Shown here: in pieces, positions 14,365 to 20,719 of the stretch
How positions within the stretch are numbered: position 1 is the stretch's first letter
Layout: every line of letters begins with the position of its first letter
Assembly (NCBI RefSeq): GCF_001571045.1
Contig: NZ_BCSV01000004.1
Location: forward strand, 62,001 to 126,000
Direction of reading: 5' to 3'
Source: Curtobacterium ammoniigenes NBRC 101786
GTDB lineage: Bacteria > Actinomycetota > Actinomycetes > Actinomycetales > Microbacteriaceae
Length of the DNA stretch: 64,000 bases
Position numbers and translations under genes: made by a program
The notes under the pieces: model-generated
The model's input: the letters and a program-made list of their open reading frames with translations, nothing else
Told to the model about the DNA's origin: nothing
Databases searched by the model: none

Positions 14365-14404
14365 AGCCGGCCGAGCGGGCCGATCCCCGCTCCGGCCTCC
14401 CCCG

Positions 14405-14443
14405 GCGCCGGTCGTCTCCTTCCCCCCAGGAGGCGGCCGGCGC
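14405..14443 (+). terminator. Terminator hairpin of the GH42/ABC operon
   Basis: A 16-bp stem with two G-U pairs runs from GCGCCGGTCGTCTCCT to AGGAGGCGGCCGGCGC around a TCCCCCC loop, followed by TTCTCTG. It starts 40 bases after the binding-protein stop. It could also act in the opposite direction for the convergent sqdX-like gene. Confidence 0.8.
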
Positions 14444-14500
14444 TTCTCTGCGCCCGCGGGTGCGAGGAGCAGCCCGACGGCTGCTGATAGCCCCAGGGCT

Positions 14501-14602
14501 GGGAGGAGCAATGGAACGCCGACACCCCGAAGCCGGGACGAGCAATGGCACGCCGACACCCCGAAGCTGAGAGGAGCAGCGGCACGCCGACAGCCCGAGG
14601 CC
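14501..14602. repeat. Three tandem copies of a 34-bp repeat
   Basis: Three units of exactly 34 bp lie at 14501-14534, 14535-14568 and 14569-14602. Each contains a core close to GGCACGCCGACACCCCGAAG and a purine-rich GGAGGAGCA head. Copies 1 and 2 differ at only a few bases; copy 3 is more diverged, and a degraded fragment precedes copy 1. The array sits between two convergent genes and no ORF in it looks real. Confidence 0.85.
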
Positions 14603-14624
14603 GCGTACCGGGCAGGCAGCCGCG

Positions 14625-15764
14625 CTACTGCAGCGCGCTCGTGCGCGACGGATCCGCGGTCGACGCGGGCTGCACCAGTCCGCGATAGATGTCGATCACC
14701 TGCTCCGTCGCGCCGCTCCATCCCCACTCGAGCGCCTCCCGCCGTGCGAGACGGCTTCGCTCGGCGGGGTCACCGACGGCGAGCACCTCGTCGATGAGCG
14801 GACGGAATCGCTCGGGGGCATCGGTCGGCACCAGTCGCGCCACGGGCACGTGCGCGAGCAGCTCCCGGCTGGCCGGGGAGTCAACCGCTACGACCGGAAC
14901 GCCGCACGCCATCGCCTCGATGAGGACGAGCCCGAGGGTCTCGGTGGTCGACGTGAACACGAACGCGTCCGCGCGCTGGTATTCCCGCGCGACGTCGTCG
15001 CCGCGAAGCGGCCCGACGAACACCGCTCCGGTCCCTGCGAATGCCGCTTCGAGCGCCACCCGGTCTGGCCCGTCGCCGACGATGCGGAGTTCGACGTCCG
15101 CCGACCGGGCGAGCGGCAGCAGGCGCCGGAGGCCCTTCTCGTCGGCGAGTCGACCCACGTAGAGCGCGACGATCCTTCCGTTGTCTGGACGCGCCTCCCG
15201 CCCGCCTGGCTGGAAGCGCTCGAGGTCGACGCCTCGGCGCCAGAGCACGACGTTCCGGACCCGATGTTCGGCGAAGAGCTGCCGCGAATGCTCGGAGGTG
15301 ACAAGGTTCACGGCGGCCGCGTTATGCAGGGCGGCAATGATGCGCCAGATGATCGGGCGCGACCAACCCAGATGGTAGGAGCCCGCGTACAGCGCGATGT
15401 CGGTGTGGAACGACGCGACCAGCGGCACGCGATGCCGTTTTGCCCAGAGCACACCGGCGATGCCGATCGTGAACGGACTGACGACGTGCACGAGGTCGGG
15501 CGCGAACGGCGCAAGCGCCCGGCCAACCGCCGGCGAAGGGAGCCCCCACGGCTGACCGCCGTACACCCAGCTCACCCGGAACGCGGGCACGCGCACGATC
15601 CGGAGGCGCCCCTCCTGTTCATGATGCGGCGCACCCGGCATCCGCGGCGCCACCACGAGCACCTCGTGTCCGGCCGCGAGGAGCCCGTCGATCGTCGACC
15701 GGAGCCGGGTGACCACGCCGTTGATGGCGGGCTCCCAGACCTCGCTGACGTAGGCGATGCGCAT
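14625..15764 (-). CDS. GT4 glycosyltransferase, SqdX-like (sulfoquinovosyltransferase candidate)
   Basis: This 379-residue protein is a GT-B retaining glycosyltransferase. The N-terminal domain has EPAINGVVTRLRSTIDGLLAAGHEV near 11-35, then LVASFHTDIALY; the C-terminal domain has ALYVGRLADEKGLRRLL and the donor-site motif TETLGLVLIEAMACGVPVVAVD near 290. The WRRGVDLERFQP and HNAAAVNLVTS segments resemble SqdX of cyanobacteria, which transfers sulfoquinovose from UDP-sulfoquinovose to diacylglycerol. The gene starts seven bases after the sqdB stop, which strengthens that reading. A mannosyltransferase of the MgtA/PimB type is the main alternative, since those are close relatives. Confidence 0.75.
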   Translation of the reverse strand: MRIAYVSEVWEPAINGVVTRLRSTIDGLLAAGHEVLVVAPRMPGAPHHEQEGRLRIVRVPAFRVSWVYGGQPWGLPSPAVGRALAPFAPDLVHVVSPFTIGIAGVLWAKRHRVPLVASFHTDIALYAGSYHLGWSRPIIWRIIAALHNAAAVNLVTSEHSRQLFAEHRVRNVVLWRRGVDLERFQPGGREARPDNGRIVALYVGRLADEKGLRRLLPLARSADVELRIVGDGPDRVALEAAFAGTGAVFVGPLRGDDVAREYQRADAFVFTSTTETLGLVLIEAMACGVPVVAVDSPASRELLAHVPVARLVPTDAPERFRPLIDEVLAVGDPAERSRLARREALEWGWSGATEQVIDIYRGLVQPASTADPSRTSALQ

Positions 15765-15771
15765 GCTGCGG

Positions 15772-16962
15772 TCAGTTCGCTGCGGGCACCCGCCGCGGAC
15801 GCACCCACTGCGAGACCGACGGGATGCGGTCGAGGTCGGCGCGCTCGACGTAGGCGCGTGCGACGTCCAAGACCTCGTCCATCAGGTTGTCTTCGAGGGT
15901 CAGCGGGAACAAGCCGAGTTCGATCAGGCCGTCGTTCGCGACGAGCAGTTCGTTCTCGGGCGCCTCGTTGCGCGGGTTGTCGACGTAGGAGATCGTCGCA
16001 CCGGTCATTCGCGCGACCATTTCCGCGAGATCGCGAACGCGGTGCGTCTCCGTCATCTGATTGAAGATACGGACGCGTCCGGCATCGGTCGCCGGCGGGT
16101 TCTCGATGGCCAGACGGATGCATTGGACGGTGTTCTGAATGTGGATGAACGCCCGCTTCTGCCCGCCGGTGCCGTGGACGGTCAGCGGGTGGCCGACGGC
16201 AGCCTCCATGAGGAAGCGGTTGAGGACTGTGCCGTAATCGCCGTCGTAGTCGAAGCGGTTGATCAGGCGGGGGTCGAGCTCCGTCTCCGAGGTCTGCGTG
16301 CCCCACACGATGCCCTGATGCAGGTCCGTCACCCGAAGCCGGTCGTTCTTGACGTAGTACGCGAACATGAGCTGATCAAGGGTCTTCGTCATGTGGTAGA
16401 CGCTGCCCGGGTTCGCCGGATACAGGATCTCCGTCTCGATGACCTCGCCATCGGCGCCGTGCATGCCGACCGTCAAGTACCCCTCGGGGATGCGCACCCC
16501 GGCGGTGCCGTAGCCGTAGACGCCCATGGTGCCGAGGTGCACCACGTGAGGGTCGAGCCCGGATTCCACGATCGCAGCGAGGAGGTTGTGTGTCGCGTTG
16601 ACATTGTTGTCGACCGTGTACCGCTTCGTCGCCGAGGTCTTCATCGAATACGGCGCGGCCCGCTGCTCGGCGAAGTGGACGATCGCGTCGGGCTGTACCC
16701 GCTCGAGGACGGCAAGGAGGCCGTCGTAGTCCTGCGCGACGTCGAGCTCGATCGTGTCGATCGTGCGCCCGGTCACCTCATGCCACGCAGCCACGCGGCC
16801 AGCGAGTGACTCGATGGGCGTGAGCGACGATGCGCCGAGCTCGTCGTCGATCCGTCGGCGTGAGAAGTTGTCGACGATCGTGACCTCGTGGTCCGAGGCG
16901 GAGAGATGCAGGGAGGTGGGCCAGCCGCAGAAGCCGTCGCCACCGAGCACGAGAATCCGCAT
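15772..16962 (-). CDS. sqdB: UDP-sulfoquinovose synthase
   Basis: This 396-residue protein matches SQD1/SqdB nearly end to end. The NAD loop is GGDGFCG at 7-13 with the following WPTSLHLS; the active-site residues correspond to Thr145 in LGTMG, Tyr189 and Lys193 in YHMTK. HFAEQRAAPYSM (96-107) and FGTALNRF-like YGTVLNRFLMEAAVGHPLTV are also diagnostic. The enzyme converts UDP-glucose and sulfite to UDP-sulfoquinovose, the head-group donor of sulfolipid. It is one base from the gtrA-like gene upstream and seven from the sqdX-like gene downstream, so the three form an operon. Confidence 0.93.
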   Translation of the reverse strand: MRILVLGGDGFCGWPTSLHLSASDHEVTIVDNFSRRRIDDELGASSLTPIESLAGRVAAWHEVTGRTIDTIELDVAQDYDGLLAVLERVQPDAIVHFAEQRAAPYSMKTSATKRYTVDNNVNATHNLLAAIVESGLDPHVVHLGTMGVYGYGTAGVRIPEGYLTVGMHGADGEVIETEILYPANPGSVYHMTKTLDQLMFAYYVKNDRLRVTDLHQGIVWGTQTSETELDPRLINRFDYDGDYGTVLNRFLMEAAVGHPLTVHGTGGQKRAFIHIQNTVQCIRLAIENPPATDAGRVRIFNQMTETHRVRDLAEMVARMTGATISYVDNPRNEAPENELLVANDGLIELGLFPLTLEDNLMDEVLDVARAYVERADLDRIPSVSQWVRPRRVPAAN

Positions 16963-16963
16963 G

Positions 16964-17506
16964 TCAGTTGTCCACTTTCTCTCGGAGAGCCGCGGCCGCG
17001 CCGCGATCGTTGCGATACACCCATCGCCGGTACAGCACGAAGCGCAACAGGGCGCCCATACCGGCCCCCACGACGTTACCGGCGATGTTGTCGGCGAGCA
17101 GCGACGTGAATCCGAAACCATAGTGCGAGATCGCAAGCACGATGACGTTCACGAGGTATCCGGCGAGCGACACGACGATGAATTCCACGAACTCTCGCAC
17201 GATGTCACGCCGGCCGGTACTGCGGAAGGTCCAGTACCGACTGCCGAGCCACGCGACGATGGTCGCGGCGATGACGCCTGCCGTCTTCGCCTCCACCGGC
17301 CCGCCGAGCACCGTACCGGCCGCGGAAACGCGCAACAGGTTGAAGATCCCGAGGTCGACGATGTAGCTGATCAGCCCGACGGCGCTGAAGCGAGCGGCGT
17401 CCCCGACAAGCGACGCGCGTCGCAGGTCTCGGACCGGGGTCGGAAGCGCATCGTCCGCCGCCATGCCGGGAGCCGCCGCGACAGGCCGCTCGTCCGACTG
17501 TGTCAT
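16964..17506 (-). CDS. GtrA-family membrane protein
   Basis: This 180-residue protein has a hydrophilic N-terminus of about 38 residues and four membrane segments between about 40 and 165, the GtrA layout (FSAVGLISYIVDLGIFNLL, then RYWTFRS and RFVLYRRWVYR at the turns). GtrA proteins are thought to move polyprenyl-phosphate-linked sugars across the membrane. It is the first gene of the sqdB operon, which raises the possibility that a sulfoquinovose- or hexose-bearing intermediate is flipped. Transcription starts in the divergent gap shared with lgt. GGAGGATC lies just before the ATG. Confidence 0.85.
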   Translation of the reverse strand: MTQSDERPVAAAPGMAADDALPTPVRDLRRASLVGDAARFSAVGLISYIVDLGIFNLLRVSAAGTVLGGPVEAKTAGVIAATIVAWLGSRYWTFRSTGRRDIVREFVEFIVVSLAGYLVNVIVLAISHYGFGFTSLLADNIAGNVVGAGMGALLRFVLYRRWVYRNDRGAAAALREKVDN

Positions 17507-17644: not shown

Positions 17645-18640
17645 ATGTCCGCATTGCTCGCCGCGGGAATCCCGAGCCCGCCTACGAACGGCTTTCAGAT
17701 CGGCGCGTTCGAGATCCACTATTACGCCCTCTGCATCCTGACGGGCATCGTGATCGCTGCCACCGTTGCGGGTCGTCGGCTGAAGGCGCGGGGCATCGAG
17801 GGCGGCAAGATCGTCGACATCGCGATCTGGGCAGTGCCGATCGCGCTCGTCGGCGGTCGCTTCTACCACGTGTTCACGCACCCGGGCGACTACTTCTCCG
17901 CCGGCGACAACCTGTGGAACGTGTTCGCCCTGTGGGAGGGCGGACTGGCCATCTACGGGAGCATTCTCGCGGGGTCGGTCGGAGCCTGGATCGGCAGCCG
18001 TCGCGCGGGCGTTCGCTTCTCGGATTTCGCTGACTCGGTGGCACCCGGCATGCTCTTCGCCCAGGCGTTCGGTCGCCTGGGCAACTACTTCAACCAGGAG
18101 CTCTTCGGACCGCCCACCACGTGGCCGTGGGGCCTGCAGATCAGCACCAGCAGTCCGCACTTCCCGCCAGGAACGCCTCCGGGCACGCTCTTCCAGCCGC
18201 TGTTTCTCTATGAGCTCATCTGGGACACCATCGGTGGCATCCTTATCATCGTGCTCGGACGGCGGTTCCGCCTGCCCCGGGGCGTCCCCGTCGGCATGTA
18301 CTTCCTGTGGTACGGCGCCGGGCGCGCGTACCTCGAGGTGATCCGTCTCGATCCGACGGAGTTGACGATCGGGGGCGTGAAGGCGAACACGCTCGCCGCG
18401 ATCATCGGAGCGATTCTCGGACTCCTGATCATCATCTGGTCCGTTCGGCGTGACCGTGAGCGGCTCCGGTCCGGAACGACCACTGCCGAGAGTCCGGACG
18501 CCGCGCCAGCGGCAACCGCAGGTGCTTCGGCGGAAGCCTCATCGGATGGCGTCGTCCGCTCCGATGAGACGCACGACTCCGCACCCATGGACAGCGAACA
18601 CACCGTGGCGTCGTCGCCGCCGGGGCGCCCCGCCGATTAG
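17645..18640 (+). CDS. lgt: Prolipoprotein diacylglyceryl transferase
   Basis: This 331-residue membrane protein has the Lgt signature GRLGNYFNQELFG near residues 142-154 and an early YYALCILTGIVIA segment with HYYAL near 26-30. It transfers diacylglycerol from phosphatidylglycerol to the lipobox cysteine of prolipoproteins, the first step of lipoprotein maturation, in the cytoplasmic membrane. About seven membrane segments fill residues 15-280; the last 55 residues are a Ser/Thr/Ala-rich cytoplasmic tail found in actinobacterial Lgt. Its stop codon overlaps the stop of the convergent methyltransferase gene. Confidence 0.95.
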   Translation: MSALLAAGIPSPPTNGFQIGAFEIHYYALCILTGIVIAATVAGRRLKARGIEGGKIVDIAIWAVPIALVGGRFYHVFTHPGDYFSAGDNLWNVFALWEGGLAIYGSILAGSVGAWIGSRRAGVRFSDFADSVAPGMLFAQAFGRLGNYFNQELFGPPTTWPWGLQISTSSPHFPPGTPPGTLFQPLFLYELIWDTIGGILIIVLGRRFRLPRGVPVGMYFLWYGAGRAYLEVIRLDPTELTIGGVKANTLAAIIGAILGLLIIIWSVRRDRERLRSGTTTAESPDAAPAATAGASAEASSDGVVRSDETHDSAPMDSEHTVASSPPGRPAD

Positions 18641-19380
18641 TCGCGGGAACGACCAGACTCGCCGAGCAGCCCCACCGAGGATCGAGCTGGACCGTCCAGC
18701 GGATCCGACGACGGCGTTGCCAGGCGCGTTCCACGCAGGACGATGTCGTGCAGCGTGATTCGCTCCCCGTCGCGTTCGATCCACCGCGACTCGGCCGTCA
18801 CCTCGCTGCGCCACTCTGCGGGGTCGAGGACGCCGCGCATGCCCTCGAGGCGAACGATCGCGTCCGCGGGCGGCTCCCCGCCATGGCTATGCCGCCCTCC
18901 GGCCCCGTGCCCGACGATGAGAAGGCTTCCCCCGGGTCGTACCCAATCGGCGATCCGGGCGTACAACTCGAGCTGGGGAATGGTCGCGTGCGCATAGTGG
19001 GACGCGACGAGGTCAAACGACGACGATGGCTCCCAGACCGTGAGGTCGGCGACGTTCCAATCGACCGGCACCGGCGCCTGCCGTGCTCGCGCGCGCTCGC
19101 CGGGCGGGAGCGCACTGTCCTCCCGCGCAGTCTGCGCTTCCCGGGTCCGTGCGACATCGATGGCCGCGTTCGAGAGGTCGACAGCGGTGACCCTCCATCC
19201 CTGCTGCGCGAGCCAGATCGCCTCGGTGCCGGTGCCGCACCCGGCATCGAGCACCGTTCCGACCGGGAGCGAGGCGACAACATCGACGAGACGCGGGTTC
19301 GGCTCCACCGGCTCCCGGAGTTCATCGCCCCGGGCGTCGGTCCAGTGCCTGTCCCATCCGGCGGCGTCGAAGTCGTGCAT
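18637..19380 (-). CDS. Class I SAM-dependent methyltransferase
   Basis: This 247-residue protein has the Rossmann-type motif I VLDAGCGTGTEAIWLA near 43-58, motif II VTAVDLS near 67-73 and a motif IV-like FDLVASHYAHATI region. There is no membrane segment. Substrate is unknown; close relatives include TehB-like and ubiquinone-type small-molecule methyltransferases. A 20-residue polar insertion (PPGERARARQAP) lies after motif II. The gene is convergent with lgt, overlapping it by four bases, and divergent from the ftsW-family gene. Confidence 0.85.
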   Translation of the reverse strand: MHDFDAAGWDRHWTDARGDELREPVEPNPRLVDVVASLPVGTVLDAGCGTGTEAIWLAQQGWRVTAVDLSNAAIDVARTREAQTAREDSALPPGERARARQAPVPVDWNVADLTVWEPSSSFDLVASHYAHATIPQLELYARIADWVRPGGSLLIVGHGAGGRHSHGGEPPADAIVRLEGMRGVLDPAEWRSEVTAESRWIERDGERITLHDIVLRGTRLATPSSDPLDGPARSSVGLLGESGRSRD

Positions 19381-19486: not shown

Positions 19487-20719
19487 ATGCGTTTTCATCG
19501 CCTGGTGCTTCCGACACTGTCCTGGCGGCAGAATCCGCTCGGCGCCGTGATTCTCTCGGTCGCGGTGTTCCTCACCGTGTTCGGCACCGTCATGGTGCTC
19601 TCCGCGTCGTCCGTCGAAGAGATCGCGGTGCATCAAAGCCCGTTCGCAGCGTTCACGCACCAGCTCATGTTCGCGGTCGTGGGACTGCCGATGATGTTCA
19701 TCGCGTCCCGCGTGTCCGCGATGTCCTGGAAGCGCTGGGCGCTCCCGATCTTCGTCGCCGGCGTCTTCCTCGAGCTCCTCGTGCTCTTCACCCCGCTTGG
19801 AATGACCGTGCAGGGGAACCGAAACTGGCTTCGGCTCGGCGCGTTCTCCGCGCAGCCCTCTGAGCTCATCAAGCTCGGGCTCGTGCTGATCGTCGCGGCG
19901 ATCATTGACCGGAAGCGCGAGGCGATCCGCACCGGCGTCCACGTCGTCCGGGAGGTCTATCTCCCGATCGCGATCGCCCTGCTCATCGGGGTGGCTCCAG
20001 TGCTCCTCGGGAAGGACCTCGGCACCTCGATCGTCATCGTCGCCGCGGTCTTCGGGGTCCTGATCTTCAGCGGCATCAGGATTCGCGACATCGTGCTCGG
20101 CGCGCTGGGAGCAGGCGGAGTCGTCGTCCTCCTGGCAATGACCCGGTCCTCGCGAGCCGGTCGCATCACAACCTGGTTGCACGGGTGCGGCGTTTCGGAC
20201 CAGACGCAAGCGGCGTGCTGGCAGCCCGTGCACGCGCAATGGGCGCTTGCGGCAGGCGGGATCTTCGGCAAGGGCCTTGGCGACTCGATGCTGAAGTGGT
20301 CGTGGCTGCCGGAGGCGGACAACGACTTCATCTACGCGATCATCGGCGAGGAACTCGGCCTCATCGGCGCGTGCACGGTGCTCGCGCTGTTCATCGTGAT
20401 CGCGATTGCGTTGATCCGCACGGCGCGGCGCCGCTCGGATGTCTTCGGGTCCGCGGCGAGCGGCGGCATCCTGGTGTGGGTCGTCGGCCAAGCGCTCATC
20501 AACATCGCCGTCGTCCTCGGACTGCTCCCTGTTCTCGGCGTGCCGCTGCCGCTCATCTCGGCGGGCGGCTCCTCAATGGTCGTGACGCTCATCGGGCTCG
20601 GCGCGGCAGCGTCCTTTGCCGGACGGGTCGAGGAGCCGGAGGCGGTGAGCACGGCGCCGACGCGGAGTCGGACGCCGGCGCCCGCCGAATCCGGTGCGTT
20701 CGCGATGCACGACGTCTGA
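19487..20719 (+). CDS. FtsW/RodA/SpoVE-family peptidoglycan polymerase
   Basis: This 410-residue protein has about ten membrane segments and SEDS-family motifs: GNRNWLRLG near 109-117, FSAQPSELIKLGLVL, then HAQWALAAGGIFGKGLGDSMLKWSWLPEADNDFIYAIIGEELGLIG and PLPLISAGGSSM near the C-terminus. These proteins polymerise lipid II glycan chains together with a class B penicillin-binding protein. The LPEADNDFIYAIIGEELG signature is FtsW/RodA-typical. It lies outside a cell-division cluster, so it may be an additional FtsW-type copy in this genome; FtsW and RodA roles cannot be separated here. The last 35 residues are a cytoplasmic tail. Confidence 0.88.
   Translation: MRFHRLVLPTLSWRQNPLGAVILSVAVFLTVFGTVMVLSASSVEEIAVHQSPFAAFTHQLMFAVVGLPMMFIASRVSAMSWKRWALPIFVAGVFLELLVLFTPLGMTVQGNRNWLRLGAFSAQPSELIKLGLVLIVAAIIDRKREAIRTGVHVVREVYLPIAIALLIGVAPVLLGKDLGTSIVIVAAVFGVLIFSGIRIRDIVLGALGAGGVVVLLAMTRSSRAGRITTWLHGCGVSDQTQAACWQPVHAQWALAAGGIFGKGLGDSMLKWSWLPEADNDFIYAIIGEELGLIGACTVLALFIVIAIALIRTARRRSDVFGSAASGGILVWVVGQALINIAVVLGLLPVLGVPLPLISAGGSSMVVTLIGLGAAASFAGRVEEPEAVSTAPTRSRTPAPAESGAFAMHDV

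Follow-up and report, generated by a model that had tools for sequence, protein, structure and literature searches.

A probable route to sulfoquinovosyl diacylglycerol in an actinobacterial operon, with a recurrent GtrA neighbour of sqdB

Within a three-gene operon of the window (the whole stretch of 64,000 nucleotides analysed here), two neighbouring genes very probably provide a route for the synthesis of sulfoquinovosyl diacylglycerol (SQDG), as judged from sequence comparisons. What we observed directly is the presence and arrangement of the genes, their homologies, the conserved catalytic residues in SqdB, SqdX-type residues in the transferase and the repeated occurrence of GtrA genes beside sqdB; from these we infer both reactions, the acceptor and the physiological role of the operon. 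SqdB would convert UDP-glucose and sulfite into UDP-sulfoquinovose with the help of its bound NAD, and the GT4 enzyme would link sulfoquinovose to diacylglycerol on the inner side of the membrane. The product, SQDG, is an acidic phosphorus-free lipid that could replace phosphatidylglycerol. The GtrA protein perhaps aids passage across the membrane, either of the lipid itself or of the sugar in lipid-linked form; how it would do so is a guess. The SQDG route itself is known in kind; the new part is the recurrent GtrA partner of sqdB.

SQDG is generally presented as belonging to photosynthetic membranes. With a probable two-gene route here and no match in the remaining 65 of the 66 genomes of its genus, the window's genome offers a clean place to ask about a non-photosynthetic role of the lipid. 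As to the crossing of the membrane by SQDG, we found in the open-licence literature no paper joining SQDG, flippase and sqdB, and the recurrent GtrA neighbours name a testable candidate for this step.

The operon and its synthase

The three frames lie where the sequence-only reading had placed them: the order is GtrA, SqdB, GT4 transferase, all on the minus strand, and a check of reading frames and spacing confirmed gaps of one base between GtrA and SqdB and of seven bases between SqdB and the transferase.

16964..17506, minus strand: GtrA-family small membrane protein, first gene of the operon (180 aa; PF04138)
15772..16962, minus strand: SqdB, UDP-sulfoquinovose synthase (396 aa; homology with SQD1 and with S. 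meliloti, aligned catalytic residues)
14625..15764, minus strand: GT4 glycosyltransferase, best read as SqdX-type (379 aa; Pfam GT4 domains, identity with cyanobacterial SqdX-like proteins, profile contest, residues)
14365..14480, no strand assigned: strongly folding stretch, possible terminator (z-score -3.06; equalled or bettered by 1 of 200 shuffles)

On one side, a GH42 beta-galactosidase gene and an ABC-transporter cluster are oriented toward the sqd operon, and the folding stretch lies between this convergent cluster and the operon; the terminator scan listed no site at 14365..14480. In the gap 3' of the transferase gene a 34-base unit is repeated in three tandem copies (14501-14603). 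The G+C of the window (64-72% in 2-kb steps) and its gene content point to an actinobacterium. The genome (3.04 Mb in 13 contigs) carries two PAPS-reductase-family genes, which makes a supply of sulfite plausible. A control of the operon by phosphate was considered and rejected: the pattern GTTCA-N6-GTTCA, which we take to be the phosphate box, gave with up to two mismatches 28 matches for 26.8 expected, i.e. no excess, and none between 17507 and 17644. In G280, a genome of another genus of the same family, a PHO4-type phosphate transporter gene is divergent to the matching operon, a single case. A sigma-70-like promoter was looked for at the sqd operon and none was found.

The sqdB gene had been called unmistakable on account of Thr145, Tyr189 and Lys193, and the comparisons bear this out. 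Arabidopsis SQD1 provides the best solved structures for the protein (E about 1e-97) and is a full-length homologue, as is the protein of Sinorhizobium meliloti; identity is 45% with SQD1, 45-46% with two cyanobacterial SqdBs and 64% with a gene of S. meliloti strain Ak57, which we take to be S. meliloti sqdB. The catalytic Thr, Tyr and Lys are common to the three proteins, Thr145, Tyr189 and Lys193 being aligned with the triad described for SQD1, Thr145, Tyr182 and Lys186 (PMC4388408), and the stretches H-F-A-E-Q-R and G-T-M-G are also kept. Pfam recognises an Epimerase domain (85.4 bits), and the best NCBIfam family is UDP-sulfoquinovose synthase NF041015 (332 bits, E 4e-99), below its curated cut-off of 575; this cut-off serves for naming and does not describe the enzyme itself, and the protein is filed as SqdB on the remaining evidence. 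The genome has no other full-length SqdB homologue, the second match covering 95 residues (E 3e-5).

For Agl3 of Sulfolobus, whose residues are taken from the paper, it is described that alanine changes at His95, Arg101, Met145, Tyr182 and Lys186 abolished activity and that T144A did not kill the enzyme (PMC4388408). SqdB has GTMGVYG, as in S. meliloti, in place of the GTMGEYG of SQD1, so that Glu147 of Agl3, whose change to alanine is reported to have weakened the enzyme (PMC4388408), is missing. According to PMC3972451, S. meliloti produces SQDG and SQDG-free mutants of it exist. A GT8 enzyme follows the S. meliloti sqdB homologue, so that the transferase is not predictable from SqdB alone. 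Actinobacterial UDP-sulfoquinovose synthases are included in a published alignment (PMC4388408), and two SQD1/SqdB clades are already in print (PMC8227023).

A lateral gain of sqdB from Alphaproteobacteria was entertained and dropped. In a quick SqdB tree the window clade fell among alphaproteobacteria, and a careful tree of 56 hand-picked rows left its placement open; when the clade was held with 11 other actinobacterial rows the likelihood was better than that of the free search (p-AU 0.68), and the constraint with a 19-row set gave p-AU 0.46. A second sqdB lineage is present in the family (L128-L134, genus code g21) and groups with Kocuria, Citricoccus and Corynebacterium. Two SqdB types are found in the cyanobacterial G404 and G403 (L053, L046, L102, L104), one by an SqdX-like gene and the other on a separate contig.

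The nature of the transferase

The name SqdX-like, given to the transferase by the sequence-only reading, is upheld by matches, profiles and residues. The protein has the Pfam domains Glyco_transf_4 and Glycos_transf_1, and its AlphaFold model (pLDDT 91) is of the GT-B type and lies closest to MshA, with PimA among the 12 nearest solved folds, a likeness that speaks for the fold alone. Each of four cyanobacterial genomes has a best match to the transferase of 41-43% identity (E 8e-72 to 3e-75), the second-best reaching only E 1e-16 to 7e-19. We take these best matches to be SqdX on homology and position; two lie beside an SQD1-like SqdB, one beside the other SqdB type, and on the short locus of the fourth no SqdB was seen. 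These pairs resemble that of the window, with sqdB beside the best-matching GT4 with the same residues, and differ from it by the SQD1-like SqdB in two of them and by GtrA, which was not found in those loci.

By sequence, the best solved relatives of the transferase are PimA proteins, which gives some ground to another view: the enzyme would be an MgtA/PimB-like mannosyl- or glucosyltransferase of a pathway separate from sqdB, the real sulfoquinovosyltransferase lying elsewhere. Plain identity, of low contrast between the two groups, hardly separates SqdX-like from MgtA-like (34-39% with 23 other sqdB-linked rows, one of which, L075, is 2.8 kb from sqdB on the opposite strand; 37-40% with cyanobacteria; 27-38% with MgtA-like rows). 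By contrast, two profiles built without the window clade gave the transferase 327 bits for SqdX-like against 249 bits for MgtA-like. The pair of sqdB and transferase recurs across four phyla, and the genome carries a separate gene, 36% identical to the transferase, which we presume to be MgtA-like (570 bits with the MgtA-like profile, whose building set included it). Altogether we hold the MgtA/PimB-like view to be highly improbable.

The residues point in the same direction. At 12 columns parting 27 SqdX-like from 7 MgtA-like proteins, and picked without the window clade, the transferase has the SqdX letter nine times, the MgtA letter twice and neither once; columns 15 and 96 hold the MgtA letter. 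On the SqdX side stand Val18-Thr19-Arg20, Thr156 and Phe270, whereas the proteins that we presume to be MgtA-like, which share the fold and the general motifs, have T-x-S at 18-20 and His at 270. V18-T19-R20, S118, H120, T156, F270, S272, T274 and L277 are common to the window and to all 24 transferases added later, which are not fully independent since they were picked by a profile including the window clade; two further transferases from the phylum sample have the same residues as the window, and column 95 shows the MgtA letter in 11 of the 24 added SqdX-like rows. Arg20, Thr156 and Phe270 occur in none of nine other GT4 rows; His120, Ser272 and Leu277 are weak marks because they are common in other GT4 rows too. 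Arg20 is absent from three gammaproteobacterial transferases near sqdB.

The transferase tree was computed on 58 rows, then on 48 after removal of seven long-branch rows and three second copies; the SqdX-like set excludes the gammaproteobacterial L028, L047 and L083, which were checked separately, and L062 (281 aa) was omitted as short. The window clade forms its own branch and none of three groupings is rejected: with the 27 SqdX-like proteins (p-AU 0.41), with the 7 MgtA-like ones (0.14), which counts for the MgtA-like view, or with the 4 cyanobacterial ones alone (0.07). Profiles and residues disfavour a mannosyltransferase, and the SqdX type appears the best reading of the enzyme.

Distribution of sqdB and of its transferase

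SqdB homologues were counted up to an E value of 1e-40, with the window's own genome among them and both SqdB types together; genus, family, order and phylum are here those of the window's genome. In the genus one genome in 66 has such a homologue, in the family 12 in 349 (6 of 85 genera), in the order 49 of 396 sampled and in the phylum 100 of 396 sampled, where sqdB is not rare. A pathway to SQDG, as proposed from the sequence alone, stays the best reading of the operon; the tie to phototrophs that came with the proposal appears weaker than implied, given these order and phylum counts.

A transferase gene directly downstream of sqdB (within 250 bases) was found at 18 of 80 loci in the scan of named genomes, and in 10 of the 12 sqdB-bearing family genomes, own included, one other being cut by a contig end and one being without it. 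Among the 29 other order loci listed, 24 have a clear SqdX-like neighbour, two a fragment at the locus end and three none (19 further order matches came without loci); among the 29 phylum loci listed, none has an SqdX-like gene within 1.5 kb of sqdB. Longer hand-picked stretches show the SqdX-like neighbour at 18 of the 19 loci from the order and at 2 of the 20 from the phylum.

Outside the phylum, Bacillus coahuilensis (Bacillota) is, by description and not by sequence, a similar case: a non-photosynthetic bacterium with both genes, sqd1 and sqdX. It is reported to contain sulfolipids, the data not being shown in that source (PMC4744853). In a Baltic metatranscriptome the expression of SQD1/SQD2 is ascribed to cyanobacteria, and that of other lipid-remodelling genes to Actinobacteria (PMC13086504). 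The open-licence literature yielded no paper joining SQDG, Actinobacteria and sqdX, none joining sulfoquinovosyl, Corynebacterium and sqdB, and none joining sulfoquinovosyl, polar lipids and Microbacteriaceae.

GtrA genes beside sqdB and the fate of the sugar

The first protein of the operon is a GtrA by Pfam (GtrA_DPMS_TM, 84.5 bits for a cut-off of 26.1). Among the 349 genomes of the family, the match scoring highest outside its own genome is the GtrA encoded in G280's matching operon (54%, 147 bits); the second scores 145 bits and the others among the matches listed have 42-52% with nearly the same score. A co-inheritance of GtrA with sqdB was considered and is not demonstrated by so narrow a lead.

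Pfam-confirmed GtrA genes were found near sqdB in six settings. The window and G280 form the first, with the order GtrA-SqdB-GT. In the second, G353 (same family, other SqdB type), GtrA shares the strand of sqdB and precedes it by 123 bases, and the 7-kb contig holds no SqdX-like gene. GtrA comes 23 bases after the SqdX-like gene in Jeotgalibacillus, the third, and directly after it in the fourth, G845 and G867 (members of a single genus in a different family of the phylum), which are the only two of 20 phylum loci with an SqdX-like gene; in these three genomes sqdB, the SqdX-like gene and GtrA are on one strand as in the window, with GtrA last instead of first. The fifth setting comprises Saccharomonospora and two Prauserella, with GtrA divergent at about 160 bases from sqdB and no SqdX-like gene by sqdB; these three Pseudonocardiaceae matches were weak in the first GtrA profile and are genuine by Pfam. 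In the sixth, G1065, GtrA is divergent at 69 bases from sqdB, and the stretch examined has no SqdX-like gene. In G458 GtrA is 5.2 kb away from sqdB. A DMT transporter gene overlaps the start of sqdB in G145 (NF038012, 107 bits, cut-off 50), and in G127 the neighbours at the sqdB locus are a sugar dehydrogenase and a methyltransferase.

Could GtrA be a chance neighbour, unrelated to the sulfolipid? Many genomes of the family have it (263 of 349), this genome has three copies, the window one included, and 122 of the 132 sqdB loci surveyed (1.79 Mb outside sqdB) show none, including each of the 18 order loci where sqdB and transferase are clearly paired; as a partner at the sqdB locus GtrA is thus optional at most, and an unlinked copy could serve in other genomes. 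Against chance, a profile including sqdB-linked seeds detected GtrA at 10 loci, and in nine the gene lies no farther than 1.3 kb from sqdB; this interval amounts to 338 kb, or 19% of the DNA searched. With a profile made from 20 other GtrA proteins eight loci were detected, all with GtrA within 1.3 kb. Counted by setting with the window clade left out, five of six are near sqdB (binomial p 0.0012), or four of four with the profile free of sqdB-linked seeds (p 0.0013), p values for which the radius was set after the hits were seen, the settings were assumed independent and the genes are unevenly spread. The concentration of nine of ten GtrA loci in 19% of the DNA supports a working link with sqdB, not its mechanism, and a chance neighbourhood appears rather unlikely.

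The data thus support a functional link of GtrA with sqdB, and the cargo may be either SQDG or the sugar in another form. PMC7389260 describes GtrA proteins as presumed flippases of polyprenyl-phosphate sugars. On this ground, SqdB might make UDP-sulfoquinovose for a surface glycan or glycolipid, built via a polyprenyl phosphate flipped by GtrA; the three Pseudonocardiaceae loci and G1065, where GtrA stands by sqdB and the locus lacks an SqdX-like gene, are in keeping with such another acceptor, as is a plasmid of Rhodococcus qingshengii where sqdB is followed by a BcsB-like protein and a GT2. In the sqd operon, on the other hand, the sole transferase is a GT4 with SqdX features, there is no GT2 for loading polyprenyl phosphate and no glycan gene, and we regard this alternative as quite improbable here. 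The idea, put forward from the sequence alone, that GtrA moves the sugar across the membrane, perhaps for a sulfoquinovose-containing glycan, is therefore retained in part: GtrA probably belongs to the same pathway as sqdB, as the five further settings support, and the glycan finds no support in the operon. Returning to SQDG, we propose tentatively, as a possibility somewhat short of even, that the sqdB-adjacent GtrA proteins might be dedicated translocases of SQDG or polyprenyl-sulfoquinovose to the outer leaflet, joined to sqdB repeatedly and independently, a DMT transporter taking this place in one relative.

The Rhodococcus plasmid stretch (L177:8001-12998), which also carries a SulP transporter gene, is a candidate sulfoquinovose polymer system; its BcsB-like protein scores 19 bits, below the Pfam cut-off of 21.

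Upstream of the operon, a second lgt gene (prolipoprotein diacylglyceryl transferase, 17645-18640) is divergent and points away from it. It is 43-48% identical to the other lgt of the genome (G000:C3); the 15 genus relatives compared match that other lgt better, and in one of them a further match, of 63 residues, is to the lgt at 17645-18640. A tie between this second lgt and SQDG would be speculation. Near it lies an FtsW-type gene (19505-20719; TIGR02614, 332 bits for a cut-off of 337.5). Between the two, at 18637-19380, is a methyltransferase gene, a relative of which (42% over 133 residues) stands directly 3' of the SqdX-like gene in G127.
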